A DNA stretch of 64,000 nt from NCBI GenBank assembly GCA_030062745.1, contig CP099840.1, positions 35,095,101 through 35,159,100 of the forward strand, read 5' to 3'. The translations under genes and the position numbers were made by a program. This document shows positions 1 through 63,463 of this stretch, one piece after another. Under the pieces are notes generated by a model, which was not told the origin of the DNA, ran no database searches, and saw nothing but the letters and a program-made list of their open reading frames with translations. This DNA comes from Capitulum mitella. Its lineage: Eukaryota > Arthropoda > Thecostraca > Pollicipedomorpha > Pollicipedidae. Each line of letters starts with the position of its first letter. Position 1 is the stretch's first letter.

Positions 1-133
1 TCGGTGGACACGAGCACCGTCTCGTTGGTGCAGATGTAGGTGACGGTCGTGCCGATGGGCACCGGTCCCGTCACGTTGGCGTCCAGGTCCCACACCTGGG
101 TCAGGTTCTCCGGCGCCGGCGGCTGCGGACAGT
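1..133 (-). CDS. Lectin gene exon 23: CCP module 12 (cut by window edge)
   Basis: Phase 1 entry (GTCGACAG). It reads CPQPPAPENLTQVWDLD, then VTYICTNETVL, up to the window edge, covering Cys1 and Cys2 of another CCP. The gene therefore continues to the left; number of further modules and any membrane anchor are unknown. Confidence 0.82.
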
Positions 134-3100
134 CTGTCGACAGTGGGACACAGACGGTGGCAGTCTGTCTACCGTCTACTGTATATGTCTATTGTATACC
201 ACTGCAGCACACACACAGCGACAATCCATTCACGACAACGCGAAGACGGTGACAACCTGTTGAAAGTGGCGCATAGACAACACTAGTCACAGTAGCGCAA
301 CGAAGGGCAGTTTGTTGACAGCGCTAACAACTTAAATACGATAGTACACGTATGCTGACATTCCACTGACAGTGACACACGCTGAAGCAAGCTTGGCAGA
401 TGTAAGACACAATGGACACCTGAACAAGAGTCAGCTTTCTTTTAATGGAGCTGCAACACTACATACGACGACAGCAAAACAGCATATACCGACCACTGCA
501 TAAAAGTAAAGAGACCAGACGCTCGTCGACTGAGCTCCAGAGGCCACCTGTATTGCCCCCCCCCCCTCCCGCTGCCGGCAAGGGAGGCTCGGACCAACGC
601 AGCTGAAATCCAGCCGGACTGCTCACGGTCGCAGGAGGCCGGCGGCCGGCTCCAGCCAGACGCTTTGCACTTCATGGTCTGCTCCCGCAGGCCGGCCTCG
701 GTCGTCATCGAGTCGGTGCAGATGTAGAGCAGCGCGTTCTCCAGCTTGCCGGTCACCTCCCCCGTCCGATTCTGGGAGGCCCCGGGCTCGGCCGGGTCTC
801 CGATGCACGCTGAAACGAAACACCGCGAGATGAGCAGACACCCTGAAAATGCACTCCGACGGGAAAATAACAGTCTGAAATATCGCGAAACGAACAGACA
901 CCCTAAAAATACAACGTGAGGGAAAGGGAAAAAAATCAGATATCATGAGATGAACAATTTAAGAAGACATGAGACGACAATGAAGAGATACCGTGAGGTA
1001 AACGGACACTTTAACGGGGCACTGCGCGAGAAACCAACATTGGAACGACACGCACGAGACGAACACTAGCGAGACGCCGCTAGGCAGTCACGGTGCGGCG
1101 CGCCGGTCTCCGTGCTCACTGTCGCAGTTCAGGGCGTGCTCGCCGGTCCAGCCGGTCTCCGTGCAGACGAGCTCGCGCTCCTGAGGGCCGGAGACGTCCT
1201 GCATGCCCGGCCGGCACACGTAACGAGTCGTCCCGCCGCGCGCGATGCTCAGCTCGCTGATCCGGGAGCCCGGCTCCGGCTGCGGCGGCCACCGGCACGC
1301 TGTCGGCGGAGGCACGGAGCCGTGCAGCAGCGCCCTCTGGGCCATCACAGGGCTGAGTTTGGTCGGTAGCAGGACGCCCAGGAAGCGCTGCTGTTGTCTG
1401 TATACGCTCCGTTTTCGCTAAGGTTAACGCTTTGTTCCTTTGTGATGCTGGGCAGGGAGACATTTTAAAGGGAAGACGGTCGCTTAGTTCAACGATAATG
1501 ACAAAGCCAAAAAACTGTCATGGCAAACGGAAAGTATAGAATAAACTTTGGACGATGTTTGACGTTGAAATCATGACAACGAGCGCCTTTTACAAAGCAC
1601 AGTTAGCAGCTGACGAGGGATCTTGTATAGATTGCTGGCGCTGAGACTCGGATAGCAGAGCATGAGAAGACAATCACGTCAACTCTACACCATTCCCGAA
1701 AACTGATCCTTCCGCGTAAACCGCCACTGTCTACACGGACGCATCCAGTCGGTAAGGCATCGCGCAAAGCCGGTCTGTCCCAAACCAGACCTTAGCCTCG
1801 CAGTCGCGGTCCAGAGAGCCGGCCTGCGGCAGACCAGACGGCCGACTCACAGTCGCACTCGGGTACGCAGCCGTCCCAGCCGGTGGGCGAGCAGGCGAGC
1901 CGGTACCAGTGGCGGCCCCAGGGCAGCTGGGACGCGTCCGAGCACTGGTACGTGGCGGCCTCGTCTCCCAGCGTCCAGTCGACGGTCGACGCCATGCCGG
2001 AGGCCGGCGGCGGCGGGGCGGCCGTGCACACTGCGGGCCCGTCGGCCAGCCGTCACCCGGGGCCAGCCCTGACCTGACCCTGCACAGGCGGACTGGACGG
2101 CCTGCTGCTAGAACACCTCAACTTTACGGAAACAGCCAGCTCAGAAGTCACGTAAGTGGGTCTGCCGTGGCAAAACTAGCGTACTTTGGTTTTGCAACGT
2201 CAGTCTGGCAGCCCATTGCGGAATCTGTTAAGATGACTGATGTTTAGATAAGGGCAAAGCTCCGAAAAGACGAAGAAATCTGCCAGATGCGCTAGGAAAT
2301 TTGTCACTCCAGCGACTAATCGGAGAACATCTGTCAGCCGTCAGAAGCACTGTGGACATGAAACACTGTCGGAAGGCATCGCTTACTAAAAAAGGAAGGC
2401 ATTCTTCCCGTCAGGGGCCAGATACGGCATTGCATGACTAAGGCCAATTTGTTGGGGAAAAATTTATCCGAGATTCCCACACATGCCAAGCAAGACAAGG
2501 TCGGACTGTCGGCGGAGGGCGGGTTAGACAGTCGGAGGATGGCGGGCCAGACTGTCGGGGGGTCAGATTGCCGGCGGATGGCGGTTCACGCTGTCGGCGG
2601 ATGGCGGTTCAGACTGTCGGAGGAGGGCGGGTCAAACCGTCGGCGGAGAGCGGGTAAGATTGTCGGAGGCGGGCGGGCCAGACTGTCGGGGGTCAGATTG
2701 TCGGCGGAGGGAGGGTAAGACTGTTGGCGGGGATGGTTCGCACTGTCGGAGGCGGGCGGTTCACACTGTCGGAGGAGGGCGGGTCAAACTGTCGACGTAG
2801 GGCGGGATAGACAGTCGAAGGAGGGCGGACCAGACTGTGGGGGGTCAGACTGTCGGCGGAGGGCGGGTAAGACTGTTGGCGGGGGTGGTTCGCACTGTCG
2901 GAGGCGGGCAGCTCAGACTGTCCGAGGCGGGCGGGTCAAACTGCTGGCGGAAGACGTGTCGTTCTGTCGGCGGAGGGCGGTCGGCCGGCGGTGGAGGGCG
3001 GGCTGCCTCACCGGTGCAGGACTGGACGTCCGTGTCGTTCCAGCCGCCGCTGCCGCAGGCCACCGTCTGCGTGGTGCGCAGGCCCTGCGGCGTGGCCAGG

Positions 3101-6100
3101 TCACTGCTGCAGGTCAGCGTCACCACGGAGCCGAACGTGTTGTTGCCGTCGTAGTCCCAGGTCATGGTGCCGTCAGGCAGGTGCCGCAGCTCAGGGCCTG
3201 AACCAGCACATCATAAGGTTAAGGGGTTAAGGGGTGGTAGGACAACACCACGGTGGTAACCGGTTAAGGACAACACCACTGGTGTTGTCATGTCATGTCA
3301 TGTCACCATGGCAAGAAGCGGGGTGAGCGGTACGGCTGATAAACCACAACGGCTAAAGGGACGGTGCCCGAAAACTGTCGTTCCCCGCTGCTGATGCCTG
3401 AGGTACTAGTCATGTGTGTTTCAATAATAGTTTTGCATCTCAAACAGCTAGAATATATGCATAGAACGAATTATAATATGCATAGAAGGAATTATAATAT
3501 GCATAGAAGGAATTATAATATGCATAGAATAGTCACGCATTCGCACAGGTTCTATTTTCTTTGTTTTCATTGCTAGCTTATCTTTTTTTGTACGTTTTGA
3601 GGGCTTGTAAAACAATGCGTTATCCAGAGGCTTGCTTTTGTTTTTGTTTAAACATTTTTTGTTACTTTAATAAAATGTAGCAAATCGTTACTAAACCAAA
3701 AACAGGGATCGGCGTCAAACACCGTGGCAGGGTGTCCGACTGATCAACTGACGGACTGGCGCACACACCATCGCATCTCGCTCCGTCAAACTCAGCTGAG
3801 TTTAATCAGGAGAAAAACTGCCCCAATGCGTTTAAACGGAAGCGACGGCGGCGGAGCGTACAGCTGCAGTGGATCTCCTGGTCACAGTGGCTCCAGCCGG
3901 TCTCGGTGCAGACGGAGGTGATCTCAGTGGAGCCGTCGGTCGTGTTCAGGCCGTCGACGCAGCGGAACACGATCGCCGCGCCCAGCGAGTGGTTGCCGCT
4001 CGTCGTCACCGACGCGATGCTCGGGTGGTTGCCATCCGGCGGATGGAGACACTCTGCAACCGTCGACGAAAACACCGGTCTCTGGCGTCATCAGCCGTGC
4101 GGGAGATTGGGACGCTCCGCAACAGCCGACGGAAACATCCGTCTCTGACGTCACCCGTCGCCTAGCAGACTGTGGCGCTCCACAGTAGCCACGACAAAGG
4201 CATACAGGGAAGAGAATGCTTGCAAAGTAGATCCTTTACGTTCAGCTCTTGCAAACATTTTGAGCTGTTTTCTCCAGTTGCCAGCAAGCGTTGCCTACCA
4301 GGCGGCAACGAGTCCCGTAGTGGATCTATTCATTAATAGTTATTAAATACAATCAGCCACAGGTCCCCAATATCTGTCACAGATGCCCAGTCACATAAAC
4401 CCGCACTGGCGGTCACAGCCCCTCCTTCGCTGACAGTCACATGGCCCTACTGAGGTCACAGGTCCCCACTGACGGTGAAAGGTCCTTCTGACGACACCAG
4501 TGAGTCACAGTTCCCAGTGGCAATCAAAGCACCACTGACAGTCACAGACCCTCGTTGGCAGGCGACAGTCACATGTCCCCAGTGACGACCGTGACAGGCC
4601 CCAGTGACAGTCATGATTGCCATTAACGGTCATTGCCTCCCACTGATAGTTACCATCCCTCACTACTGGTCACAGGCCCCAGTTGGTGTCCTCCAGTGAT
4701 AGTCACACACCCCCCGTCACTGACGGTCACAGATCCGCCACTGACAGCAATAGTCCTCCAGTGACAGTCGCAGCCCCCCCCCCCCCCGCCACTGACGGTC
4801 GCAGGGCAGGAGTTCGCCCTGCCAGCCGCCGCCGCCGCAGGTGAAGTTCTGCTCGGTGAGGCCGGCCAGCGTCTGGAGGCCGGCCGCGCAGCTGTAGTGC
4901 GCCACGGCGCCCAGCTCGGAGTCGCCGTCCGTCCAGTTACTGGCGATCGTCGTCAGGCCGGTGACGTTCGGCGGCGAGCCGGCGCAGTCTGCCGACAGGC
5001 GGGGCGCGGGTCAGCGGCCGCGCCGCGGCCCGGCGGGTCCAGGCCCCGGGGACACGGCGCGGGGACGGCGAGAAACCGGCGCCGGCGTCGGCCATCGTGG
5101 CGATCGCGGCGAGCGGACTGGGAGGGCCAACGCGCCCTAGCGCGAGACAGGCCGCGAGAGGCACGTGAAAACGTTGACTGTCGTTTGAGTGATGTCGTGA
5201 ACTAGCAACGTTTCACGAAGAGTACATTTCGCGAATGAAGCGTGGTGACAGTTTTGGCCAGAGACGTTCAAAATGCCCGAGCCCGCCAGCAGCAGTGTGG
5301 GGTCGTCTTCACGTTATCGTGAGCTGGGTGAGGGTGCCTGGCGGCGAAGGACTGACGCGTAACCCGTTTGGACTGCTCCGACCAGCGGAGGGACTGACGG
5401 CCACCTGCGGTGGTGTAGGGAGGGGCTGGCGGCAACCTGCCGTGATGCAGGAATGGACGGTGACCACAGGCAGGAGTGGCGGCGAGCTCCGGAAGAGGTC
5501 TGGTCAGGTAAGGAACGATGGGCGTGTGCAGGGCTAGTGGTAGCCACCGTTAGCCCCGGCCGTCTGGAGCTGACTCAGTCCGTCGGTTACGCCGGGGATG
5601 GGGAGCACCGGGGAAACAATGCGCCATTCAGAACCGGAACAAGTCAACGAGTTCCATTTCCTCGGCGTGGCAGCAGTGTGTTATCAGCATCAATGAGATG
5701 CTGAAAAAAATAACGTTTTTACGTTTAATTCCCTCTTTGTTTTTCCGCGATTTCGAAATACTAAAATTGTACGGTACTCTGACCGAGGCTGAGCATCGTC
5801 CCGCAAAACGGAACTTAGCACAAGGACAAAGGAGCCTTTGGCAGCAACCAGGACAGGAGCTCCCTTTCCGCCCCGCCGTCTGGCCTGCGAGCGAGCTGTC
5901 CACCGAAATCGACCGAGCGACACAGGCCGGCTCCAGGCCAGCGCAGCAGCGCGTGTCCGCGTCCCGTCCGTTCACGCCGGGGGTCACGACGCAGCGCCGG
6001 CACGCCGAGGCCGTCCGTACGCGTGCAGTTGACGAAGTCGGGGCACAGCTGCCAGCCGGAGGGCAGGCAGATCGCCGTCGTGTTGGTCTCGCCGCCGACC

Positions 6101-7066
6101 GACTGCACGCCTTCGGGACAGCTCAGCTGCAGCAGCGCGCCCAGCGACTGCACCTCCGAGGCGTTCGTGGAGACAGGCCGGTGTTGTTCAGCTCCAGCGG
6201 GGCGCAGAACGAGCACGCCTGCACCTCGCCCACCTGAAACAGCGGCCGCCGCTCCACTCCCGGCACCGGAGCGGCGCTGCATGGCTTCGCAGGCCGCCAC
6301 ACAGCACTTCGTCCCGGGTTTCAGATGGAGAGCGTGACAATGGAGCGCGGGTCCACCAGCCATATGTTTTCGTTCTCAGTGCAACTCTTACGAGTCAAGA
6401 AATAGCCGCAAACAGAGCAAGGCCAGGGGCGAAAAGGGAAACGTAGGCTGCGACGGTAGCAGGGGCCGACATTGCCTATATATATACTAAAGTATCTGAC
6501 ATGGACCAGGCAACCTTCTGTTATAGAACTTTAACACTCCTGGCTGGATAGACCTCAGAATAATGGAGGAGGGAGCGAGCCTGGAAAAGACATCAGGCCG
6601 TTTCTTTCCAGTCAGTTTCATAAGTTCGATGTTAAGACCTCTGTAAAGTCAGGAGTCCAGACCTTCTCAATCCCCGCCCCCAGATCACGCTCCTCTCAGT
6701 CAGACATTGATCCGGGCCCGTTCCGTTTACCCAGCCGTCCACTGTGCAGGTCTGGTTTTGCTCTGTGTCGCCGCCTGCGGTGGTGAGGCCCGGCAGACAT
6801 CTGTAGGTGACCACAGTGTCGAGGAGACGCGAGGAGGCCAGCTCTGTGGCCCAGTTGCTGACGTAGGTGGCGTCTTCGTCCGGCACGAGCGGGGGCATCA
6901 TGCAGTCTGAAACACCCAGCCGGACGACCGACGTCAGGTCACGTGACCGGCTTTTTGGCGCCGTTCGCCGAAGTGTTTTCCTAATTTTCGTTTCTGTAGA
7001 TGGCTTATGGGTGAAATGTTGAATCAGTTTTAATATATATATATATATTAAAACTGATGAAACTGA

Positions 7067-7121
<55 letters not shown>

Positions 7122-25100: not shown

Positions 25101-28100
25101 TTTTTTTCAAACCGCAAACCCCAAACCCATAATACATATGACGTACTAGGGTGTCCTCTACTTGTGTACCAAGTTTCAGCTTGGCATCAGGTCGGGCCAC
25201 GAAGCTATGACGTAACATGGCAATGTGCGAACCCTATATCACAACAGTCGTGAAATGGGGCTTTAGAAATGGAGTAAATTCAAATGATTGGAAACGTTTT
25301 CAAATAATACGAAATGCGCACGAGATCATTCCAAGTGACTCTAAGGTCATTGGAGATCATTTACGGTAAAAACTCGTCTGTTGATCTGAAGAGCGTGTGA
25401 CAATAACAGTTTCCCCTTTTTCACGTCACTGGCGCCGCCTATGCCAACATTATACAAACATTGTAATACAGTTTGTAATTTTTCAGCATAGCATGATTAG
25501 CAGAAGGTAAAAATGTGTTTTTAGCTTTTTTTGCTAGCTCAGTTTTCAAGAAACTAATCCTCCTGTTCCTGAGACCATGTGAACGCCTATGAATTTTCTC
25601 AAAATTTCAAAAATATGGTCCTATGGTAAAAGTCCCATTTATAATCTCCTCGGGTCATGCCAATTTCATCAAAATTGATCTATAAACAACAGACATTCAA
25701 GAAGTCCAAAAATATCCCCATTTTGACTTTTTTGCCCCTATATCCAGCCCTTTCAAAATTCTGAAACCTTCTTCTTATAAACATGTAGTTGACGTCATGG
25801 TCAATCGATTGCCGTTTGTTGCGATGAAATCGGATCTATAGTTATCAAGATCTCAGCGGGGCCGAATCGCCCCCCCCCCCCGCTGCCAGCAATCGACCAT
25901 ACCGTCTAGCCCTCCGGGAACAGGGTTAAGCTGATTTAAGTTGCTGACAGACCAGGTTGAACTGCAAAAAAACATGATTGCCTTTAATGTTACTGTTCCG
26001 TGGTGCAGCATATTCATCGATTATATCCCATTTTTTCCAGAACCATTAGTCTGACTGGTTTAGTGCTTCAGTGAAAATGGGCATCAATGGATCTGAAAAC
26101 CAGCAAATGATTTCGAAACATCAAAACAAGCCATGTATTATGGCTTTCGGGTGAACAGGAATTGAACGGGTTATGAAGATCGTCAGGTGTTGTCCTACAG
26201 CTTGGTTGCGCAATAAGTGAAATTCCGTGGGAAGAACCACTGGTGAAACTGCCCTATTCCCGCACTTATAGTGCTAGGGCGCATGCCCATGTTTGTGTGG
26301 GGGCTTATCCCACTCCCAGAGACCTAAAGAACTATCCGTCCGGTTTTATCGCAACAAATGACAGTCAGTGCGCCATGACGCGTGCTCCGGTTCTTCATAA
26401 AAGACGTTTTCTTAGTCTTTATTTACAGGGGCCTACTCGCCCCCTCTCAGAGATCTCAAGAGCTACCCGTCTGGTTTCACCCAACAAAGGAGAATCGATT
26501 CGCCGTGACGTAAAATCTGATTTATTAAAAAGAAGTTTGAAAATATTGAAAAGAATTGATACCAGGAGCAAGGAAACCAGAAGAATGGTTTTTTTTTTAC
26601 TTGTTATACCTCCTCTAGTCATGGGCCGACTTTGACACAATTGGCATTAATTGAGAGCTAATCGATTGTACTTTTCCAATGAGATATACCTTAAGAATTT
26701 TAAGCAAAGGAAAGGAGTTCATGGGGCTTGTAAAACGGAATGATATTTTTATTTCAAAAGTCAACTAAAATACATAGAAGTTAACAAACTGCTTGCTTTT
26801 ACTAGTCATATTGTACTTGAAAAGCACGAATCGTATTAGACTGTTTCTATAATGCTGACATAGGCGGCGCCAGGGACATCGAAAAGGGGAATTGTCATTT
26901 ACAACTCCTTAAATGGCCTCAAATGACGCCATAGTCACGTGGAATGACCTTGCTTTCATTCAGTGATACTTGAAAACGTTTCCGGTCATCTGAATTAATT
27001 AAATTTCTAAACGCCCGTCGTGATTATGGGGTCGCCCGTCATTTATGGCCTTTGCGATATAACGTACGTGCGCGGACATTTTAGGTCACGGCTCCGAGAA
27101 AAAAAAGAATCTGTTGTGCACATGAAACTTCACATACGAGTAGAAAGCACTGTTTTGAGTCACACTTCTTACGATTTTTTTCATTCGAACAATTAGCCTC
27201 AAAAACATTGGCTTAAAACCGTATTTTCACTTTTGACCTTAATCCAACCTTGTTAAGCGACCTAAAATCAACAAAAACATTTTTGTTTGTTTTCCTCTGA
27301 ATATTTGGCTGTATGCACATTCAAAGTATTAAATTCTTTCCTAAAAACTCCATTTGTGGCAGCCATTTTTTACGTACCTTCAACAGTGCTAAAAATGGCC
27401 TGAGGTACCCCCGAAAAATTCGGTCTAGCTTCGCAACTGAGTGCAACAAAGACGGGAAAATTTGGCATAATACGTGGAAGAAAAGTTAAGAAAGCGACAA
27501 AGTTTCGTGGAGCTGCTTGGAGGAAACCTGGAAATGGCGAGCAGGAAACCGAAGGGAATGCTTCTGAAGACTCCCCCCTTCCGGAATTGAGTTGAGCATT
27601 CTTTGTGGTCTCCATAATAAATGAATTGTAAACATCTGTGATGTTCCTGTCGTGACACCAAAGTTTTGCAAAAATAACCGAGAGTATCGGTCTTCCTTGG
27701 TAATATACCAACACAGAACGCAAGCTAACCTGCAGTTCCATATCTGTAGGATATCGCAGAAAGTTGCAATTCGCCGTTGTTCATCGCGAAGCCGTCAAAC
27801 ACGCTGAAATATCGTTCGTCATCCTGTCCATGCACGTCGACCTTGAGACGGATGCTGTTGGCGTCCACAATCCTCCGCAAGTTAGCATTCCCTGCGGGCG
27901 GTAGATGGCAGTGACGCTGACTGTGCCTGGGAACGGCCAGCACGGCGCCACGAGAGTTGCCCTCCCCGCGGGCGAAGGGGCCCGCGGTCCCTCGGAGGGG
28001 GCGGGCAGCGCGGCCGTGACCGCCTGGTGTCAGACGGCGTCCACTTGTGGCGGCCAACATCAGAACATGGCTCGCCGACGGAAGCGTTCAACGCGTCGGA

Positions 28101-28863
28101 TGAGCAGGTTTCAGGCTCATACGGTCACTAATCACTGCACCGGGTCATCAAACACCATAGCGCTGTTGGGGAGGAACTGGACGTTTACTGAGCTCAGGGC
28201 ATCGCACCACATGGACGATCTTTACACGACATGCATAGCCGCACAAACCAGACCTCTTCTCATCAGCGATCGTTGACTGGGAAAAGCGTCATAAAAAGAC
28301 ATAAAAAGATAGAGGCCCCGCAACGACCGACGCCTCCCCGCCCACGGCGCGCCGGCTCCACCTCTCACCGACGTAGAACTCCCCCGCCTCGCGGTCGCCG
28401 AACCCGTCCTCCATGTCCTCGGGCGTCACGTCCGGCGCGGGCCCGGGCGCGAAGGATTTCTGCGGCGTGACTGGCGCGCCGGCGGCGTCCTCGCCGCGGC
28501 GGAACACCTCGGTCCAGCGGCCCGAGTCCATGTGGCAGAACACCTGCCGCACGCCGGCGCTCGTCACCGACCGACGGGAGCGCCCGCCGGCGAGCAGGCG
28601 TCCAGCCGGACCGGCGTTGGCGGTGTCAACGCCGGTGGCGCAGCAGGCCTCTGCACAGCGGACCTCTGGCCATACGGTGATCCACGCCACCGCGCGTCAC
28701 GACGTAGTTAAAGGGCTGCGCGATAAATGACTCAGCCAGTGCCTTTTTCAGAAGATAGTGTCAGGATGCACAGCGAATGTCGTTCCCTGGAAACTCAACG
28801 TTTTTCACGAAGAAATGGCAGTGGCCGTGATTGTGCGCATCGTTTCTTATCTCTGTCTTTGTA

Positions 28864-28923
<60 letters not shown>

Positions 28924-31900
28924 GTATATTTGGCCGACCGACTTACATTAATCAGACTGTCGGCATGCTGCATGACGTAGACACCTGAGACGTTGAACCC
29001 TTCGTCGAGCTCGTCACATAGCACGACGCCTCGGCAGGCGTCTCGAGGGTAAAAGAAGTCAGCCTCGGCTGCCGCCGCCAGCAGCGCCGCTGAAACGTGG
29101 TCCTGATAAAACGGCATGCCGCAGGAACAAGACACCACTGAAACAGGCCGTCCCTGAGACCGTCCGGCGTCGAAAAGAACCGGAAATGATCGTCTGCTTT
29201 CTGTGGTGAACTGGGCTCAACGCTGTGCTCAGAGTATGCATTAGTGCGCCAGTGTTTTCATGACTTCTGAAGTGCAACTTCGGCGAGGGTGAACTCGGTG
29301 AAACGTTGCTTTGACGTCCTGTGTTTAATGTTTCCCCGTTTAAATAATCCTAATTTTGGGGTAGATGAACATGCTGGTACGTCGAAGATAGTGCTCACAG
29401 CAGAGTGCTGACCTAAGACTTGCAAAAATAACTTACCGTGAAACGCACTTGGGTATCAAGGAACTCTTGGCTCAGATTTATTCATTTTTGCAGTTATGTT
29501 ACCAAACAGATTAGGGATCAAACACAAATCGCAAAACTGAGTCGTGCTTAACCCTATTCCCGGAGGGCTACACGGTATGGCCGATTCCCGGCAGGGGGGG
29601 GGGCGGATTCGGCCCCCCCCTGAGATCTCGAGAACTACTTGTCCGATTTCATCGCAACAAACGGCAATCGATTTGCCGTGACGTGAACTACATTTTTATA
29701 GAAAGAAATTTTCAAAATTTTGAAATGTGTGGATACAGGGGGGCAAAAATGTCAAAATGGGGGGCACTTTTGGACTTCTTATAACTCCGTTGTTTATGGA
29801 CCGATTTCAATGAAACTGGCATGAATCGAGAGATTATGGATAGGGCTTTTACCATGGGTATGCAAATCTGAAATTTTGAGAAAATTCATGGGCGTTTACA
29901 GGGTTTCAAAAATAGGAGGATTAGTTTTCTAATAACTGAATGAACAAAAGAGGCCAAAACACTTTTTTAGCTTCTGCTAGCCATGTTATGCTAAAGAAGT
30001 ATAAATCGCATTACAATGTTTGTGTAATGTTAGCATAGGCGGTGCCAGGGACATGAAAAAAGGGGGAACTGTCATGGTCACGCGTTCTTCAGATCAACTT
30101 GTGACCTTTGACCTTAAATGACCTCTAGTGACCTTGTGGTCGCTTGGAATGATGTCGTGTTCATTCAGTATTATTTGTAAACGTTTTTAATCGTTTGAAT
30201 TCACTCTATTCCAAAAAAATCATTTTTTGGCTTTTGCGATATAGGGTACGCGCACTGACATTTTAGGTCATAGCTCCGTGACCCGACCTGATATCAAGCT
30301 GAAATTTGGTACACAAGTAGAGGGCACCCTTCTACGTCATATATATTCCGCGTTTGGTATTTAAAAAAACGGCGCCGAAATTATTGCAAAAAAACAAATT
30401 TTGAATTTTGACCTTGACCTGACTTTGTAAAGTGACCTCAGATAAAGAAAATTGCATACGCGCATTGCCCAACTATTTAGCTATACACCCATATAAAGTT
30501 TTAAGTTCTATCTTAAAAACTCTGTTTTTGGCAGGCATTTTCATTTTACCCTCAACATGGCCAAAAATGGCCTGAGGTGCCTCCCAAAAACGTTACCTGG
30601 CTCCGCCCCTGAGCAAAACAGAACTTTGAAATTTTGTCACAGCACGTAGAAAGAATAGCTAGGAAAAGTCACCAAGTTTCGTGAAGCTGCGTTAAAAAGC
30701 CTGGAATTGGCAAGCAAAAAACCCGAGGGTGGGCGGATTCCGTCCCCCCCTGCCGGGAATAGGGTTAAGCCAGGGTAGAAAAACTGCGTAGAAGCCAAAG
30801 CTGCGAAGTTTTGAAAAATTGGAAACGGGCGTAGCAATAAACCAAAATAACGGAACATAGAGACGCAGAACTGCGTAGCCATGTGAGAGAAATGGTTCCC
30901 AAGTAGAACCGTTTATCAGCCCATACGAAATAATTCAATTTCTTCAGCGGGACGAAAACACCATCATGGTTTGTCAGTTCTTCGCAGGAGCGTAGGAACA
31001 TCCAGAAGAAGTGCATGGGGGAGGACAGGGAAGTTTTCTCCCATAGGGCTAATGTTATGTTTTATCAAAAGTGTGGGGGCCTGAACCCTCCCCCTAATCC
31101 CGTCCCTCTTCCTATGTCAATGACTCCTCGTACTCTTGTATTGCGTGATGACTGGGCAGTGGGCATCACGGACGTATTTCAATGCTAAGAAAATGTCGCA
31201 AAGCCGACTCAGTCAGGTACGGTGTTTTGAAGTCACGCAGAAGGCCCCGTCGTAAGGCGGTCCTTGGGCTATACATCTTTTTCAGAAAACGTTTAATACT
31301 TTTGTTAAGAGACATTGACTGGGGCCTGTGGCCAATTTCCAGCCCCAGGAGTGGCATTTTTGCTCCCTGTCTATCTCACGAGTCAATGGCCGACTTTGGT
31401 GATTCAGTTGAGAGATGATATCCCTGCATCGTGAGGCCTAAGGTATTTCCAGTTTATTTACATCACGGACGCCGACTACATCACAAGCCAGGACAAAGCA
31501 TAAAATTTGACGGCTCTTTGCCAGCTGTTTCAGAAACAAATTACCAGGACAAGGATAGTAGACACCAGCCTTATGTGGCATATAATGAATGAACCTTGTT
31601 ACAGTAAATCACGTTTTAACAAAAAGTGGCCAGAGGTACAGTTAAGTCATGAGTCAGCATTAGGCTATAACCTCACCTTTAACTTTTTATATGTTGATAT
31701 GGAAGAATTTTACCAAGAAGCGAAAAATGGCACACAAATGCCGTTTTTGTGCTCTGTAACCCATAAATTCAAGTGTTCTTTACCTGCAATATTTTGGTTG
31801 GTACATGTATACTTGTCCCAGAAAAGGCTAAAAGGACGCAGTTAAAAGTTAGCAAATAGCTATCGTTGACCTAATATGGGGTCACTTACGACTTGAGCGG

Positions 31901-34817
31901 ACTGATATTTGGTCTTTCGACCACCCCTGACGACCACCTTGCAACACATGTAAAAGGAAAAAGATAGAAACCGTAGTCTAAACATAACTGAAAAACGCGA
32001 CTATCACTAGTTTACATATCCCGACCCATGGTGAGCAGGTCAGCTGTTGTTTCTGCCAAAAGATGGATGTGATCTCACATACGAGTACTGAAAACCTCCG
32101 GACAGCTGGCTTTCGCCGTTTAGAAGATCCGATGAATAAGCCATGGTTTAACCGTGGTTTTCCCCTCCCTTTCCTGCAGGACTGCAAGAGAGGCAAAAAG
32201 GACCCAGGAACTCGTGGCTTAACGGACCAGCATGTAGTCAAAAGCCTTTATTTCCGAAACACTCGTTTCGGGAGCAAGAATAGACCGAACTCAAGTGGCC
32301 TCAAAAACCTAAAGCCGTACGAAATAATTCCATTTGTTTTTCGTTCTGGAAGAATTTTCGTCCTTATTATTCGAGACTTTCTGATAACGGGCAACCGGTT
32401 ACGCGATTCTCATCCTTACTGAGGCGTCTGGCCCGTCAAGTGTCTGTGTCGATGCCATAAATTCGACAGAAACATATTCGGGCCGGGCTAACAACTGCAA
32501 GGACTGGTAGAATCAAGGTCACGTGTAACAAATTAAGCCTGAAGAAATGCCCCGTAGTGTCCGTAAATGAGCCCAAAGTGAAGGGAAATTGCCGCTGTAA
32601 TGGGATTGCCATAATGGGATTACTGCAGTTTACTCGCATCTAAATTATGGTAGAAAAGCGCCTTATGCTGATTACAAGTGTTCCATACTGATACAGATAC
32701 TACGTTTGAAAACTCATTCCCATCGCAGTGCATGTCTCAAGTCTTGACATGCAATATATATGTAATGGAACAGTCGTCTCACGACAAAAGGCAATACGAG
32801 TAACTCATTATGAAGCAAGCTATTGTGTTAAATGAAATACAAAAACTTTCAAATCCAAGGAAATTTACCCAGGTTTCTTACAAAATTGTCAGCTGGAAAG
32901 ACAATGAAACGATTATTTTGCATATCTCATCAGAGCGATGGCACGCGTTTAGGGCGCACTGTTTTTTTCAAGCACAGTGGTGCGCTTCGCGTTACAGTAA
33001 CCCTTTCAGAATGCATACGCAATGCAATATGCAATACGCCCTCAGCTGATATTGGATTGGTGGAAATTTTGGTAATTTTAGTACTTTTTTGTATTTCATT
33101 TAAAACGGAAAATCAATGCGCTGGAATGTGTCAAAAATGAGGCGGATAATTTTTCGGAACAGTCATCTATAAAATTTAGTCTTTTTAATACTAAATGTAT
33201 AATCTACATCAAATCCTTATTTGTTTCACAAAGCTTGATACTTGCATTTTCAATATATCCATTTTATTAATTTATTTATCTATTCAATACTTAATATTTA
33301 ATTTAATAGTCCGACATCTACTGTGAATACTTGCTTTTACCGAAAACATACGTGTGTCTAATCTTTCTGTAATACTCACCATTACCATTCCAATCTGGTA
33401 TGAAAAGAAAACCATAGCGAGAAACCCATTAGGAATGTAACATCGCATTTTAGGGTCTTCATGACAACAGAACATTCAGCTTAGTCTCAGACTGAGCAAG
33501 TTAAAAAGATACAGTTATATATCAGAATATTTTAAATGGTGTTAGTTACGATGCCTGTAGGCAAAGATTCTGAAAGTGGTGCCGGTCAAAAGCAAGGTCA
33601 TATGTCATGTTCTAACTAAATTTATCCCGAGTGTACGTAGGTATCCTAGGGCTGAATTCACATGTGGCTGACTTTGGGATTAGGCTTCAAGCCAAACTGA
33701 GCTTGTTCCGTTGATGCTGACCTTGTTACTCGGGTGCTTCAAAAATGTGGAACGCTCTTCTACGTTCAGCGAACCTAATGTTGCTAGAGTATCTTCATTG
33801 CGCCATGCAACTCCAACCGTCTTTGTGATCAGCAGCGCAAACCGATTGAAATGCCCAGTTGTACACTGAATAACTCATCCAACTTTGATCCTGTCGCAGG
33901 CAAGAATTTCGCAAGTGTCTGTCATAATTTCGAACTCCCTGCGATGGGTTGGCTAAGCCACAGACAGAAAAGGCCCCACTTTCGTCGGTCCTTGCTCGCG
34001 ACACCGGGTTCGCATAGTCCGAAGACTTGCCACTACAGACCACGATTTTATTTGTTACTAAGTCTGAGGAAAATGGCATGAGCGTGCGACCAATGGTTAC
34101 CGAGATACCGGCTCCGAAAGCGAACGGTTTGGCTATATCGTGGCTGTTTAACACCTAATTTAGAAAAGCCCTTTTTCGAAGAAGTACCTTCGCCTGCTTG
34201 GAGATGACTAAAAATTTCAAGGGAAAAGTTCAAAGGTTTGGCATAAAGGTAGTGCTATCAAGGCAATATATTTGCCTTTCATTTACAAGATATATTTCGG
34301 AAAGGATTTTGGTTAATGCAAAGAAGCTTACAATGTATTATACCTTTTCCAGGGAAAATTAAGCCTGAAAGATGGCGAAAATATCGGGCGTTCTTGGTCA
34401 CGCTAGGACTGAAACCATGAACAATTATGGCGTTGGCACAACATGGTCTATGCGAGGAATCGTATTGTCCAGTAAATTTCTTTAATACGTTTCTGGGTTT
34501 GCAATTACGCTATGCTTCTTAAAATGTGGCAAAGTGAACATTTTTCGGCCTTTTTTAATGTTATGCCCTCGTTTTTCTAGGAGATGTCATAATGATGGTT
34601 GCAATCATAGCAAAAAATGACGAAATTTAGAAAATCACAACCTTTTTCAGGGTCTGGGTCGGAGTTGCTGAAACAAACAGATTTCAGATCTGATCTCGAG
34701 TTTCCAAGTTTCTTCATAAAATAGTACAACTTGAAAATGGCTCCGACAAGTCACTGCCGCTTTCCGACACTGCATTCACTGGGGAGACTCACCCAGGAGG
34801 CCCACCAGCGGCGCCAT
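1..34817 (-). CDS. Multidomain secreted lectin: FReD - CCP - CTLD - CTLD - CCP(n) (whole gene, 3' partial)
   Basis: Spliced gene of 23 recognisable coding exons; the ATG is at 34817 and the gene leaves the window at base 1. Concatenated exons give about 1300 residues: signal peptide (1-25), fibrinogen-related domain (about 28-242), CCP module (about 245-328), two C-type lectin-like domains (about 330-470 and 472-603), then at least eleven CCP modules. Every splice border read is GT-AG, and donor and acceptor phases match at each junction; only the exon 15/16 border is uncertain. No transmembrane segment is seen, but the C-terminus is missing. By family knowledge such ectodomains bind glycans or partner proteins at the cell surface or in hemolymph; an adhesion or immune-recognition role is inference. 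The CTLD plus CCP stalk resembles selectins and insect Furrowed, but an N-terminal fibrinogen domain is not part of those. An exon 16 frame break may be an assembly error. Confidence 0.85.
134..626. other. Intron 22 of the lectin gene
   Basis: Ordinary AT/GC-mixed intron with a poly-C run near 556-568. I see no further gene or RNA in it. Confidence 0.6.
627..809 (-). CDS. Lectin gene exon 22: CCP module 11
   Basis: Phase 1 entry (GTTTCAG), phase 1 exit (C|GTGAGC), 183 bases. The module reads CIGDPAEPGASQNRTGE, ALLYICTDSMT, TMKCKASGWSRPPASCD, with all CCP landmarks and one N-glycosylation sequon (NRT). Confidence 0.86.
1120..1299 (-). CDS. Lectin gene exon 21: CCP module 10
   Basis: Phase 1 entry (CCGACAG), phase 1 exit (A|GTGAGC), 180 bases. 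The module reads CRWPPQPEPGSRI, TTRYVCRPGMQ, ELVCTETGWTGEHALNCD, a complete four-cysteine CCP with its Trp. TETGW is shared with exon 18, a sign of module duplication. Confidence 0.87.
1300..1850. other. Intron 20 of the lectin gene
   Basis: Intronic sequence between CCP modules 9 and 10. No recognisable repeat or gene seen. Confidence 0.6.
1851..2030 (-). CDS. Lectin gene exon 20: CCP module 9
   Basis: Phase 1 entry (CCCGCAG), phase 1 exit (T|GTGAGT), 180 bases. The module reads CTAAPPPPASGM, AATYQCSDASQL, RLACSPTGWDGCVPECD, with the Trp two residues before a paired Cys. Confidence 0.84.
2500..2990. repeat. G-rich irregular minisatellite in intron 19
   Basis: A motif close to GACTGTCGGCGGAGGGCGG recurs about twenty times with spacer changes on the plus strand, giving strong G/C strand asymmetry. 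The ORFs running through it on the plus strand are repeat artefacts. It ends just before exon 19. Confidence 0.85.
3012..3197 (-). CDS. Lectin gene exon 19: CCP module 8
   Basis: Phase 1 entry (GGTTCAG), phase 1 exit (G|GTGAGG), 186 bases. Cys1 is created across the splice (T|GC). It then reads PELRHLPDGTMTWDYDG, VVTLTCSSDL, TVACGSGGWNDTDVQSC. All CCP cysteines and the Trp are in place. The following intron holds a dense G-rich minisatellite. Confidence 0.85.
3455..3530. repeat. 21-bp tandem repeat, about 3.6 copies
   Basis: ATATGCATAGAAGGAATTAT recurs at 3455, 3476, 3497 and 3518, lying in intron 18 of the lectin gene. The ATGCAT core is palindromic. Confidence 0.9.
3862..4053 (-). CDS. Lectin gene exon 18: CCP module 7
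   Basis: Phase 1 entry (GTTGCAG), phase 1 exit (T|GTACGC), 192 bases. Cysteines: ECLHPPDG, IVFRCVDGL, TSVCTETGW, then SHCDQEIHC, so one cysteine beyond the usual four. The last base (T) pairs with the first two bases of exon 19 (GC) to make the Cys1 codon of the next module, so the phase is confirmed by the domain. Confidence 0.84.
4360..4795. repeat. Degenerate short tandem repeat in intron 17
   Basis: Degenerate repeats built on AGTGACAGTCACAGGCCCC and variants fill this intron and end in a poly-C run beside the exon 17 donor. No gene seen. Confidence 0.65.
4797..4988 (-). CDS. Lectin gene exon 17: CCP module 6
   Basis: Phase 1 entry (GTCGGCAG), phase 1 exit at a less common donor (C|GTCAGT), 192 bases. 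The module reads DCAGSPPNVTGLTTIASNW, VAHYSCAAGL, QNFTCGGGGWQGELLPC. It holds all four cysteines, the Trp and two N-glycosylation sequons (NVT, NWT). A poly-G tract (poly-C on the plus strand) follows the donor. Confidence 0.85.
4989..6020. other. Intron 16 of the lectin gene
   Basis: About 1 kb without recognisable coding modules. The left third is GC-rich and the right side AT-rich. ORFs present here lack domain or splice support. Confidence 0.5.
6021..6218 (-). CDS. Lectin gene exon 16: CCP module 5 with a frame break
   Basis: The exit is clear (C|GTACGG, phase 1). The 3' part encodes STNASEVQSLGALLQLSC, then AICLPSGWQLC and FVNCT, a good CCP end. The 5' part that matches the module start (CAPLELNNTGL) lies in another frame. 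The two frames meet at about 6166-6180, as if one base were missing or two were extra. The entry acceptor is 6218 or 6234, both phase 0 for the 5' frame. An extra Cys (WQLC) is present, as in exon 18. Confidence 0.65.
6689..6906 (-). CDS. Lectin gene exon 15: CCP module 4 (3' border uncertain)
   Basis: Phase 1 entry (TGTTTCAG). The module reads DCMMPPLVPDE, VVTYRCLPGL, NQTCTVDGWVNG and DQC, with the Trp correctly placed. Two donors are possible. The one used here (AGC|GTGATC) leaves phase 0, which matches the only acceptors before exon 16. The other, at 6706 (T|GTCTGA), leaves phase 1 but cuts inside the Cys4 codon. The module itself is secure; the exit site is not. Confidence 0.75.
6930..7117. 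repeat. (TA)n microsatellite, hAT target site
   Basis: Two AT tracts (about 7030-7050 and 7070-7117) flank a short inverted sequence. The second tract abuts the hAT element start; the same TATATATA follows the element end at 10811, consistent with an 8-bp target duplication, although the simple-repeat context makes this hard to prove. Confidence 0.8.
7118..10810 (+). mobile_element. hAT-superfamily DNA transposon, decayed, about 3.7 kb
   Basis: Terminal inverted repeats: the left end starts CATAGGTGGGCA and the right end finishes TGCCCACCTATG, flanked on both sides by TATATATA. Subterminal regions are packed with CCGTTACT on the left and AGTAACGG on the right, the short subterminal transposase-site arrays typical of many hAT elements. 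Inside, at 7846, lies a broken BED-type zinc finger ORF. The rest carries no intact transposase, and 8.8-9.7 kb seems to hold nested remnants related to the TTAA element family (a GGGAATAGGG end before TTAA at about 9608). It sits in intron 14 of the lectin gene. Confidence 0.82.
7846..8118 (+). pseudogene. BED zinc-finger N-terminal part of hAT transposase, frameshifted
   Basis: The ORF opens MSHQSVFTPPLEVENLDSES, has an acidic linker, then FEFKEERKNVIFTCVLC, the aromatic lead and C-x-x-C of a BED finger. The reading frame stops at 8077-8079. The expected zinc-binding H-x(4)-H part (AHIKRKH) follows directly in another frame up to a GTGAGA donor-like site at about 8120. So one base has been lost or gained, and the finger is broken. 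No downstream catalytic or dimerisation domain was recognised. Confidence 0.72.
11622..11807 (-). CDS. Lectin gene exon 14: CCP-like module 3
   Basis: Phase 1 entry (CCCGGCAG), phase 1 exit (C|GTGAGT), 186 bases (62 codons). The cysteines are ACDLSN, IVFHCRTQL, QATNCDHQ and MLPCD. The usual Trp near Cys4 is missing. The next intron downstream is the one carrying the hAT element. Confidence 0.75.
11808..13199. other. Intron 13 of the lectin gene, with an 84-bp tandem duplication
   Basis: No coding module found. At about 12881-13050 an 84-bp unit is present twice (the CCGTACC-ATTCTTG motif at 12891 and 12975). Near 12332 a sequence like TTAACCATTTCCCCGTGAGG resembles a degraded end of the TTAA element family. 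Confidence 0.6.
13200..13457 (-). CDS. Lectin gene exon 13: CCP-like module 2, enlarged
   Basis: Phase 1 entry (CCTGCAG), phase 1 exit (G|GTAGGT), 258 bases. The four cysteines are YCSVRYDQ, VRLSCPSGYN, VVWCRGFKLGW and RQLDC. The Trp follows Cys3 as in CCP modules, but the Trp-to-Cys4 loop is about 18 residues long, so the exon is roughly 25 codons longer than its neighbours. It directly follows the second lectin domain. Confidence 0.75.
13458..15718. other. Intron 12 of the lectin gene
   Basis: About 2.3 kb. A 199-codon minus-strand ORF (13613-14212) has no domain, start context or splice support and is treated as chance. An AT-rich patch at 14770-14840 contains repeated AATTAT/CATGAATTAT words. 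Otherwise nothing recognised. Confidence 0.5.
15719..15918 (-). CDS. Lectin gene exon 12: C-type lectin-like domain 2, C-terminal half
   Basis: Phase 2 entry (TGCCGGCAG), phase 1 exit (T|GTGAGC). Residues HGVFWAHGGALLPPTAFV correspond to the W-x-x-G core, followed by MQECAALSATDATKLEPIDC and GVICQTPG, the conserved C ... C-x(n)-[FV]-I-C end. No EPN/QPD or WND motif is present. This half joins in phase to exon 13. Confidence 0.83.
16310..16505 (-). CDS. Lectin gene exon 11: C-type lectin-like domain 2, N-terminal half
   Basis: Phase 1 entry (CTTTCAG), phase 2 exit (AA|GTACGT). It encodes DCRDGAVFHKGFCFTHATLA, with the paired opening cysteines of a long-form C-type lectin domain, then IYACRPLGASPANFSEDLV (the alpha-2/C-x-x-x-G-x-x-[LP]-A region) and VGAYK. 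It has the same phase pattern (1 then 2) as exon 9, suggesting the two lectin domains arose by duplication. Confidence 0.83.
16506..18616. other. Intron 10 of the lectin gene
   Basis: Separates the two lectin domains. At 17303 a CTAACCCTATTCCTGC sequence followed by a poly-G run looks like a degraded end of the TTAA element family seen at 24.7 and 29.5 kb. No coding module recognised. Confidence 0.5.
18617..18801 (-). CDS. Lectin gene exon 10: C-type lectin-like domain 1, C-terminal half
   Basis: Phase 2 entry (ACCTCCAG), phase 1 exit (G|GTGAGA). It ends with PNCLHLQYDANEM ... SHCRTEESRGD ... HYICMTN, matching the family's C-(x)n-C-x(n)-[FY]-I-C close. Neither EPN nor QPD is present, and the WND motif is missing, so a canonical Ca2+-dependent sugar site is not expected. 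Confidence 0.8.
19172..19412 (-). CDS. Lectin gene exon 9: C-type lectin-like domain 1, N-terminal half
   Basis: Phase 1 entry (GACTCCAG), phase 2 exit (TC|GTGAGT). It starts with RCPEGYSLYTRD, the C-x-x-G-[WY]-x-x-[YF] opening of a C-type lectin fold, and continues through VTCLSPPSSD, GLVQAAGRCGERDEQLLDF and AFIGDVDTSQRYI. The last stretch corresponds to the [FY]-[IW]-[IL]-G strand. The next exon, entered in phase 2, supplies the C-terminal half. Confidence 0.82.
20270..20760. repeat. Degenerate GAATC/GATTC-rich repeat
   Basis: Dense variants of GAATCGATTC and TGAATCAGAATCG on both strands. Related strings recur at 53.73-53.83 kb and 55.25-55.37 kb, so this is a dispersed repeat family of unknown class. 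It lies in intron 8 (19413-21275), in which nothing else was recognised. Confidence 0.6.
21276..21405 (-). CDS. Lectin gene exon 8: second half of CCP/sushi module 1
   Basis: Phase 0 entry (TTTTCCAG), phase 1 exit (C|GTAAGT). It encodes the third and fourth module cysteines (ATFSCSLDSG ... LLAGNPCM). The usual Trp between Cys3 and Cys4 is absent, so this is a divergent CCP. No long ORF marks this exon; it was found by following phases and splice signals between exons 7 and 9. Confidence 0.68.
21440..21612 (-). repeat. Dispersed repeat, copy A
   Basis: Contains GGGTGCGGGAAGCGCGGG, GGGCGTTGACTGGAAAAAGC, a poly-C run and GTGGAGGAGTTCCCGCGCCC. The same order of motifs occurs in inverted orientation at 55998-56190 (CTCCAGTCAACGCCCATAG there). 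It is a short non-autonomous element of unknown type. Confidence 0.65.
22120..22247 (-). CDS. Lectin gene exon 7: first half of CCP/sushi module 1
   Basis: Phase 1 entry (GTCCACAG), phase 0 exit (ATG|GTAAGT). It encodes the first two cysteines of a CCP-like module (ACSDMQ ... FKISCKDQSM). Unlike the later CCP modules, this one is split over two exons and joins in frame to exon 8. Confidence 0.72.
22577..22694 (-). CDS. Lectin gene exon 6: end of fibrinogen-related domain
   Basis: Phase 0 entry (CTGCCGCAG), phase 1 exit (G|GTACGA). It begins GPFLTLPLDGSNHRGGSF and ends LPVELKAVSLKLRADTS, matching the C-terminal W-x(4)-[YW]-x-LK-x-[VAT]-x-[MI]-K-[IL]-R-P of fibrinogen-related domains. An alternative acceptor about 48 bases further downstream exists, but it would break the phase match with exon 5. 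Confidence 0.78.
22695..24478. other. Intron 5 of the lectin gene
   Basis: Non-coding as far as I can see. Poly-G/C runs occur near 23050-23062, 23228-23240 and 23479-23492. Several flanking phrases resemble the dispersed repeats of this window, but I could not define element ends. Confidence 0.5.
24479..24582 (-). CDS. Lectin gene exon 5: fibrinogen-related domain, P-subdomain cysteine loop
   Basis: Phase 1 entry (TGTTTCAG acceptor), phase 0 exit (CAG|GTAGCT). It encodes GDGNLDALDTAVYSDSC and CTPTVWFAPPGTC. The two cysteines flank a VWF core and align with the conserved C-A-x(n)-GGWWY-x-x-C loop that closes the ligand-binding pocket of fibrinogen-related domains. The usual WW is degenerate, and a canonical D-x-D calcium site is not obvious, so ligand choice may differ from ficolins and tachylectins. 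Confidence 0.75.
24708..25925 (-). mobile_element. piggyBac-like non-autonomous element, copy 2 (about 1.2 kb)
   Basis: Ends: CCCTATTTCCGGGAGGG on the left, preceded by TTGA (from TTAA), and CCCTCCGGGAACAGGG on the right, followed by TTAA at 25926. Internal sequence matches copy 1 (29552-30764) in reverse orientation, including the CGCAACAAACGGCAATCG-type motif near the poly-G end. There is no transposase ORF. TTAA duplication plus CCC...GGG ends are the marks of the piggyBac superfamily. It lies in intron 4 of the lectin gene. Confidence 0.8.
26252..27592 (+). mobile_element. piggyBac-like element, copy 3, degraded and rearranged
   Basis: Starts CCCTATTCCCGC and ends near CCTTCCGGAATTGAGTTGA, a worn version of the TIR and TTAA. 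Near the start the element head appears twice in a row (an AGAGACCTAAAGAACTATCC-type string, then AGAGATCTCAAGAGCTACCC about 130 bases later). The body otherwise follows copy 1 in the same orientation. With copy 2 it fills most of intron 4. Confidence 0.68.
27730..27891 (-). CDS. Lectin gene exon 4: fibrinogen-related domain, middle
   Basis: Phase 1 entry (CCCGCAG acceptor), phase 1 exit (G|GTTAGC). It encodes GNANLRRIVDANSIRLKVDV followed by a Y-F-S-V-F-D-G-F segment and ISYRYGTAG. These correspond to the family's GN-x-x-[LI]-x-x-[LI]-T ... LR-[VI]-x-[LMV], the 'A-x-Y-x-x-F' strand, and the Y-x-GTAGD turn. Phases agree with exons 3 and 5. Confidence 0.87.
28369..28543 (-). CDS. Lectin gene exon 3: fibrinogen-related domain, core N-terminal part
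   Basis: Phase 0 entry after GCGGCAG, phase 1 exit (G|GTGAGA). The translation carries VFCHMDSGRWTEVFRRGED, equivalent to the family's [VI]-[YF]-C-[DH]-M ... GGW-T-V-x-Q-R-R-x-D, and ends in GFGDREAGEFYVG, equivalent to GFG-x-GEFWLG. The loop between these motifs is Pro-rich and unusual. The joined protein reads through exon 2 into exon 3 without a gap against the fibrinogen domain pattern, which supports both splice sites. Confidence 0.88.
28860..28925. repeat. (TA)n microsatellite
   Basis: Uninterrupted TA dinucleotides over about 55 bases, just inside the intron that follows exon 2. The ORFs reading Ile-Tyr repeats through it are artefacts. Confidence 0.95.
28947..29089 (-). CDS. Lectin gene exon 2: end of signal peptide and start of fibrinogen-related domain
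   Basis: Phase 1 entry, phase 0 exit (AAT|GTAAGT). It completes the signal peptide and then encodes the N-terminal strand of a fibrinogen C-terminal domain. The key string is CDELDEGFNVSGVYVMQ, matching the family pattern C-x-[ED]-[IL]-x(2)-G-x(2)-SGVY-x-[IL]-x. Two cysteines (C-R-G-V-V-L-C) sit at the domain start. The downstream intron begins almost at once with a (TA)n tract. Confidence 0.85.
29552..30764 (+). mobile_element. piggyBac-like non-autonomous element, copy 1 (1213 bp, best preserved)
   Basis: Flanked by TTAA on both sides (29548-29551 and 30765-30768). The left end is CCCTATTCCCGGAGGG and the right end CTGCCGGGAATAGGG, sharing a 12-bp terminal inverted repeat CCCTATTCCCGG. There is a poly-G tract about 50 bases inside the left end and a matching C-run inside the right end. 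No ORF of size; a MITE-like derivative. Inserted in intron 1 of the lectin gene. Confidence 0.85.
30769..34792. other. Remainder of intron 1 of the lectin gene
   Basis: AT-rich, non-coding as far as I can see. Plus- and minus-strand ORFs here are short and lack domains. Confidence 0.5.
34793..34817 (-). CDS. Lectin gene exon 1: start codon and first half of signal peptide
   Basis: Short coding exon of eight codons plus one base (MAPLVGLL), ending at a strong donor (G|GTGAGT). Joined in phase 1 to exon 2 it gives MAPLVGLLAALLAAAAEAD, a textbook signal peptide with a hydrophobic Leu/Ala core and a likely cut after AEA. An in-frame upstream ATG near 34979 would give a long Arg-rich leader and is less likely. 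The 5' UTR probably lies in the GC-rich stretch 34818-35000. No TATA box was identified. Confidence 0.75.
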
Positions 34818-42384: not shown

Positions 42385-42843
42385 CACGGTGCACCGTCCA
42401 CCGCACGGTGCACCGTCCACCGCACGGTGCACCGTCCACCGCACGGTGCACCGTCCACCGCACGGTGCACCGTCCACCGCACGGTGCACCGTCCACCGCA
42501 CGGTGCACTGTCCACCGCACGGTGCACCGTCCACCGCACGGTGCACCGTCCACCGCACGGTGCACCGTCCACCGCACGGTGCACCGTCCACCGCACGGTG
42601 CACTGTCCACCGCACGGTGCACCGTCCACCGCCCGGTGCACCGTCCACCGCACGGTGCACCGTTCACCGCACGGTGCACCGTTCACCGCACGGTGCACCG
42701 TTCACCGCACGGTGCACCGTTCACCGCACGGTGCACCGTCCACCGCACGGTGCACCGTCCACCGCACGGTGCACCGTCCACCGCACGGTGCACCGTCCAC
42801 CGCACGGTGCACTGTCCACCGCACGGTGCACCGTCCACCGCCC
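42385..42843. repeat. 19-bp minisatellite, about 24 copies
   Basis: Unit CCGCACGGTGCACCGTCCA, head to tail. It contains the perfect 12-bp palindrome ACGGTGCACCGT. Variants: CACTGTCC in a few copies and CCGTTCACC in a block at about 42660-42725. Because 19 is not a multiple of 3 and the unit lacks stops, long Thr-Val-His-Arg ORFs arise in several frames on both strands; they are not genes. Confidence 0.97.
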
Positions 42844-62942: not shown

Positions 62943-63206
62943 AAGACGGTACCCTGTAACACCGAATAAGGAGGCCCCCGGAACAGTACCCTGTAACACC
63001 GAATAAGGGGCTACAGGACAGTACCCTGTAACACCGAATAAAGGGGCCTCAGGACAGTACTTTGTAACACCGATTAAAGGAGCCTCAGGACAGTTCCTTG
63101 TAACACCGAATAAGGGGGCCCAGGAAGGTACCCTGTAACACCGAATAACGGGGCCCCAGGACGGTTCCCTGTAACACCGGACGAGGGGGCCCCTGTAACA
63201 TCGGGA
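62943..63206. repeat. 36-bp minisatellite, about 7 copies
   Basis: Units of 35-37 bases around CCTGTAACACCGAATAAGGG start at about 62954, 62991, 63026, 63062, 63098, 63133 and 63169, with variable GGGGCC spacers. It sits just past the stop codon of the EF-hand gene (minus strand), so it is probably in or next to its 3' UTR. Confidence 0.9.
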
Positions 63207-63243: not shown

Positions 63244-63463
63244 TCACTTGTCGCTGTCGAACCGCGGGAAAAACCGCATGAAGCGCGCCGGGTCGTGGCT
63301 GTACATCTCAGGGACCGACAGCACGCCGTCTCCGTCCACGTCGAGCTCGTCGAAGACGTCCTCCGCTGCGTCCGCCTCCTCCGGCAACAGGTTGGCGTAC
63401 AACTTGGAGAAGACCTCCAGAGTCAGCTGCGTGTACCCGGCCGCCTGGCTGATCAGGTCCGAC
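63244..63463 (-). CDS. EF-hand protein, last exon (C-terminus)
   Basis: Phase 2 entry (CCGCCAG), stop TGA at 63244-63246. It encodes 72 residues including FDELDVDGDGVLSVPEM, a canonical EF-hand loop (D-x-D-x-D-x-V-L-x-x-x-E/P region; Asp at 1, 3 and 5, Gly at 6), preceded by a helix (LTLEVFSKLYANLLPEEADA) and ending RFFPRFDSDK. The loop should bind Ca2+. The protein identity is not recognised. It joins the upstream exon in phase (CA|G). Confidence 0.78.

Follow-up and report, generated by a model that had tools for sequence, protein, structure and literature searches.

The 64,000 nucleotides of Capitulum mitella DNA analysed here (the window) belong to a genome assembly of 477 Mb in 16 contigs, with genes split by introns, and hold a gene on the minus strand whose 24 exons run from position 34817 to about -2103 in window numbering, that is, across base 1. 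In order, this gene encodes a signal peptide, a fibrinogen-related domain (FReD), one CCP, two lectin-like domains (called CTL1 and CTL2 below) and 12 CCPs. Splice sites and reading frames served to reconstruct its exons, with DNA from beyond the window for the end of exon 23 and for exon 24, and the exons were compared with three paralogous loci of the same genome, P1, P2 and P3. Exons 1 to 14 are stop-free, have AG acceptors and GT donors throughout and agree in phase at 13 of 13 junctions, although the sites were picked to preserve phase, and this agreement by itself is no independent proof; exons 17 to 24 are eight phase-1 exons of one CCP each, joined in frame via AG/GT sites and stop-free. 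The exon tracing of an earlier sequence-only reading was largely right, but it missed a broken frame in exon 16, to which we return below. Elsewhere in the window there is a long frame for an MFS sugar transporter, upstream of the gene and on the opposite strand (50387-51829, plus; Pfam Sugar_tr, E 4.4e-64), an EF-hand-like exon (63247-63486, minus; EF-hand_5, E 3.4e-5, below its cut-off), a 19-bp unit repeated 24 times in an array with 97% matches (42385-42845) and a tandem repeat with a unit of about 36 bp (62945-63200).

The start ATG lies at 34817 and opens exon 1 (34793..34817), which carries the first part of the signal peptide (MAPLVGLL) and, once joined to exon 2 (28947..29089; spliced frame, P1 counterpart), with the rest of this peptide and the start of the FReD, gives the signal-peptide-like N-terminus MAPLVGLLAALLAAAAEA. 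The choice of exon 1 is supported by hydrophobicity, its value of 2.26 being the highest among three upstream ATG-donor candidates (the others reach 1.23 and 0.97) and above the best of five candidates on the control strand (1.60), with the donor threshold placed at 3.9, just under the 4.0 of exon 1's own donor. An acceptor for exon 2 at 29102 conflicts in phase with exon 1, and the acceptor at 29089 fits instead. The FReD continues in exons 3 (28369..28543) and 4 (27730..27891), both backed by the spliced frame, Pfam and P1 counterparts, in exon 5 (24479..24582; spliced frame, P1 counterpart, motif check), which has the cysteine loop, and in exon 6 (22577..22694), its C-terminal end, backed by the spliced frame, by 66% identity to P1 over residues 200-243 and by hhalign. 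An additional exon around 24270 (VINRINGVLWAYDVNN) has no splice sites and was discarded.

In the joined translation, the fibrinogen domain claimed by the sequence-only reading is present by two profile tests. The spliced FReD matches Pfam Fibrinogen_C (PF00147) at E 2.4e-11 (44.3 bits, cut-off 22), and a profile of the window, P1 and P2 copies aligns to the genome's eight best FReD matches with an hhalign probability of 99.5% (E 3.3e-23, 195 columns). Taken singly, the P1 domain matches Fibrinogen_C at E 3.1e-9 (37.4 bits), and that of P2 has no match to this family. The window FReD is recognisable only after splicing: hmmscan in two of three frames over 14000-28998 found 0 families, and a genome-wide single-exon search, with at least 65 matches for Fibrinogen_C, at least 134 for Lectin_C and at least 61 for Sushi, placed none inside the window among the matches listed. 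The gene shares the fibrinogen fold with the arthropod fibrinogen-related proteins of the tachylectin-5/ficolin type. Yet each of the eight best FReD matches of the genome fits into a single open frame and has D-x-D-N-D, the canonical FReD calcium motif, whereas the window FReD is N-terminal, is spread over five exons and lacks the motif, which is absent from the three family copies examined (window, P1, P2) and present in all eight other FReDs examined.

Between the FReD and CTL1 lies one CCP, with its first half in exon 7 (22120..22247) and its second in exon 8 (21276..21405); both halves are placed by cysteine pattern only and have P1 counterparts, and the unit they form has no Pfam match. 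CTL1 is encoded by exons 9 (19172..19412; P1 and P3 counterparts, six-cysteine pattern) and 10 (18617..18801; spliced frame, P1 counterpart), and CTL2 by exons 11 (16310..16505; spliced frame, P1 counterpart) and 12 (15719..15918; P1 counterpart, profile alignment). Neither matches Pfam Lectin_C in any of three copies (window, P1, P2). The assignment of CTL2 as a C-type lectin domain (CTLD) is moderately supported, by an hhalign probability of 77.5% against 15 CTLDs of the genome, over 43 columns, and by a PDB search in which CLEC5A (E 0.006) is the best of two matches. For CTL1 the corresponding hhalign values are 0.1-0.2% and the PDB search gave nothing convincing; PDB phmmer matches of the two domains to RecA, Scone-R and ribulose-phosphate epimerase look like chance. 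We call CTL1 CTLD-like because it has six cysteines, as CTL2 does, in each of three copies, in what we take to be the CTLD long-form order (matched to this scheme by eye for both domains), because its P2 version closes with CVGFRQGAYRFKACFRKSHFVC, which looks typical by eye, and because the introns splitting CTL1 and CTL2 have the same phase. Taken as lectin domains, the two are very divergent. The signal peptide, FReD and CCPs of the sequence-only reading are confirmed, and its two adjacent lectin domains stand as a pair of six-cysteine CTLD-like units, with less support for their being lectins. Several other CTLDs of this genome also lie in close pairs, e.g., at C9:12830247 and 12830640.

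None of the sugar motifs EPN, QPD, QPN and WND is found in CTL2 of the three copies, nor in CTL1 of P1 and P2, and the sole instance among the CTL1 and CTL2 units of these copies is a single QPN in CTL1 of the window copy. Absence of these motifs is weak evidence, since 7 of the 15 other CTLDs examined in the genome also have none of them, the remaining eight having at least one.

Behind CTL2, exons 13 to 24 encode 12 CCP units, ten of them complete within the window, in addition to the one before CTL1. Exons 13 (13200..13457; also by cysteine count) and 14 (11622..11807) each have a CCP, placed by spliced frame and P1 counterpart, the unit of exon 14 lacking a tryptophan behind its third cysteine; exon 15 (6731..6906) is the best Sushi stretch of the joined exons 13 to 15 and holds a CCP up to its tryptophan, with a phase 0 donor, and exon 16 (6021..6233; intact P1 counterpart, end counted by eye) completes this CCP and adds one more. 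One CCP each follows in exons 17 (4797..4988), 18 (3862..4053), 19 (3012..3197, where the intron interrupts the codon of the first cysteine), 20 (1851..2030), 21 (1120..1299) and 22 (627..809), all by spliced frame and P1 counterpart, then in exon 23 (133..-61, of which 1..133 in the window), by its frame with the fetched DNA, and exon 24 (-1930..-2103, outside the window), by its frame in that DNA, both with P1 counterparts. A tandem repeat with a 23 bp unit occupies 2499-3002, between exons 19 and 20.

The joined exons 13 to 15 match Pfam Sushi (PF00084) at E 6.7e-5 (23.6 bits, cut-off 20.7), and three of six single exons, exon 17 having been in this search, match at E<=1 (best 6e-5, the first of the three below cut-off), whilst the joined exons 17 to 24 of the window copy match no Pfam family at E<=1; the P1 stalk (exons 15 to 24) matches Sushi at E 4.5e-24 (85 bits, five stretches). 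At least four cysteines are present in all 12 units of a list that omits exon 16 and completes exon 15 by hand with the start of exon 16 (five in exons 18 and 20), and in 10 of these 12 a tryptophan follows the third cysteine. The structure predicted for exon 17 (mean pLDDT 82.0, pTM 0.62, from an alignment of six window exons) gave 140 Foldseek matches, the 50 listed being factor H, CD46, CD55, C1s, MASP and similar CCP-bearing structures, with a best E of 0.017 and none at 0.001.

Extension past base 1, suggested by the sequence-only reading as a way to find a membrane anchor, added the end of exon 23 and exon 24 and brought no convincing anchor. Exon 24 terminates at a donor, so the gene probably extends further 3′. 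Neither scans for hydrophobic exons nor a three-way comparison of the DNA downstream of the window copy, P1 and P2 gave a convincing anchor there, and the isolated hydrophobic candidates, e.g., at +4829 of the window copy and +393 of P2, are without counterpart in the other copies. About 14-15 kb past exon 24 of the window gene lies a repeat with GWAQTNI/INIGWAR-like frames that also occurs in the downstream regions of P1 and P2 and is mobile-element-like, judged by its spread.

A genome search with residues 1-809 of the model gave 44 matches at E<=1, of which 15 fall in the window, 11 in P1 (C3:9.268-9.296 Mb), seven in P2 (C2:31.186-31.240 Mb), five in P3 (C3:32.079-32.016 Mb) and six in other FReDs. 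P1 has a counterpart for each of exons 2 to 24, with 34-46% amino-acid identity to the window copy by domain group (22 exons compared) and with equal phases, which are partly so by construction, only sites of the expected phase having been admitted. P2 keeps the order of exons 2 to 24, with exons 2, 5 and 10 placed only by weak matches or by eye, exons 7 and 8 not securely found, and two further CCP matches between exons 16 and 18. The P3 matches, of which one has E 3e-7 and the other four E 0.11-0.59, are weak yet follow the order of the gene; within one 10-kb piece, its exon 9 counterpart matches exon 9 of P2 at E 6e-17 and that of the window copy at E 8e-8. The strongest evidence for a single gene is this repetition of the domain order at the paralogous loci, because of which its status as one gene, and not two joined, is well supported, as the sequence-only reading had it. 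The large introns between the blocks, in a model built from genomic DNA alone, could be taken to mean that a FReD gene and a neighbouring CTL/CCP gene were merged by exon tracing. With matching phases at every junction of exons 1 to 14, and with the FReD-CTL-CCP order found again at P1, P2 and, by weaker matches, P3, such a merger is highly unlikely.

By alignment score, the window copy appears to pair with P1, and P2 with P3. At exon 9 these two pairs score 121 and 144, respectively, as opposed to 28-81 for all others, and for the FReD the scores are 486 (window-P1), 258 (window-P2) and 232 (P1-P2), whilst percent identity at exon 9 is less clear (40% to P1 vs 45% to P2). The window copy and P2 are located on contig C2, and P1 and P3 on contig C3. 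Because each pair spans both contigs, the arrangement fits a tandem pair duplicated along with its chromosome, which would be in line with the whole-genome duplication in barnacles described in PMC11331182.

Over 1243 codons compared between the window copy and P1, pN is 0.39 and pS 0.54, a ratio that is a rough guide only, given a pS high enough for saturation to limit it; with pN below pS, the protein would seem constrained yet fast-evolving. The frame of exon 16 in the window copy is broken near 6170: the exon starts as VGEVQACSFCAPLELNNTGLS and continues in another frame as STNASEVQSLGALLQLSC. Read as a normal phase-1 exon it has no first cysteine, and P1, in which the whole exon is in one open frame, supports the other frame at its start. 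Skipping the exon would not mend the frame, since exon 15 ends in phase 0 and exon 17 starts in phase 1. The break may reflect an allele, a pseudogene or an assembly error. Decay of the window copy, perhaps already to loss of function, while the other copies are active, is suggested by a break in exon 16 that P1 does not have, but all remaining modelled exons of the window copy are open and have AG/GT sites, pN is below pS, and assemblies may be wrong at a single base, which makes decay rather improbable.

A CTLD on a CCP stalk is also what the vertebrate selectins have, which are not known to contain a FReD. They combine a single CRD with an EGF-like domain (PMC9954269). Similar in general plan is also Furrowed, or CTL15 in the beetle Tribolium, a protein of the CTL-X (invertebrate selectin-like) type, with which the gene described here shares an N-terminal binding domain, a C-type lectin region and about eleven or more CCPs, all extracellular. 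The beetle orthologue has one F5/8C, one CRD with QPN/WND, eleven CCPs and a TM, and a CCP of fly Furrowed is cited there as mediating homophilic adhesion (PMC9954269). In place of the F5/8C, the window gene has a FReD at its N-terminus and, in place of one CRD, two divergent six-cysteine CTLD-like units; no TM was found in it, and a CCP lies between its FReD and CTL1.

Its likeness in plan could nonetheless mean that the gene is the Furrowed/CTL15 orthologue itself with its N-terminal domain mis-read. This is very improbable, as that domain is a FReD by both Pfam and hhalign, and as F5/8C, CTLD and Sushi matches of the genome profile search come together elsewhere, at C10:19.054-19.059 and C12:18.033-18.037 Mb (the CTLD match at C10 contains one stop codon within its stretch). 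F5/8C matches with Sushi arrays are found at C6:18.901-18.912 and C11:9.552-9.563 Mb as well, these four Furrowed-like loci possibly being two pairs, and all seven F5/8C matches of the genome are outside the window gene. Since the Furrowed-like loci sit elsewhere in the genome, the gene is most likely a separate, analogous receptor and not Furrowed, and the contrast with Furrowed drawn by the sequence-only reading holds. Among the titles and abstract openings listed by searches of an open-access library, none names the order FReD-CCP-CTLD-CTLD-CCP.

We favour, at a probability of about 60%, the interpretation of this gene as encoding a secreted or surface adhesion/recognition receptor of selectin/Furrowed-like kind, with a FReD head, two CTLD-like domains and a stalk of at least 12 CCPs. 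One gene would give a signal peptide, a divergent FReD, a CCP, the two six-cysteine domains and the CCP chain, with a C-terminal anchor being probable. Whilst this anatomy and the family rest on sequence (weakly so for CTL1), we infer the rest, from the anchor to the ligand and the tissue: the CCP chain could act as a spacer keeping the multi-domain head off the cell, and this head would use surfaces that change fast, and not canonical calcium-dependent sugar sites, to bind a partner that is a protein or glycoprotein.

The sequence-only reading had named a pathogen sensor first among the roles that would suit the protein, and the corresponding interpretation, in which the stalk displays the FReD and lectin domains on haemocytes for the binding of microbial sugars, is less probable, though one would expect it to be right perhaps once in several such cases. 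A review counts FReDs and C-type lectins among the pattern-recognition proteins of crustaceans (PMC11602452), binding to LPS, PGN and bacteria is reported for beetle CTL15 (PMC9954269), the protein changes rapidly between copies, and the motif-free CTLDs elsewhere in the genome leave sugar binding possible. On the other hand, the lectin-like domains are mostly without sugar motifs, the one QPN of the window copy apart, and D-x-D-N-D is absent from the FReD in all three family copies examined and from none of the other FReDs examined, so that the proposed role is not borne out.

If the favoured receptor is taken one step further, the gene might represent an undescribed family of FReD-headed, CCP-stalked receptors with a double CTLD, in which a tandem pair older than the whole-genome duplication gave rise to four fast-evolving copies that shifted from sugar to protein binding and took on cell-cell or conspecific recognition (in haemocyte adhesion, in telling self from non-self or on the larval surface). 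This larger proposal is tentative. On the favoured reading, a FReD-headed branch would join the receptors with a CTLD and a CCP stalk, known so far from Furrowed and the selectins. As the family probably has four copies that repeat one exon plan, function, loss of sugar motifs and sub-functionalisation after duplication can be compared directly within one animal.
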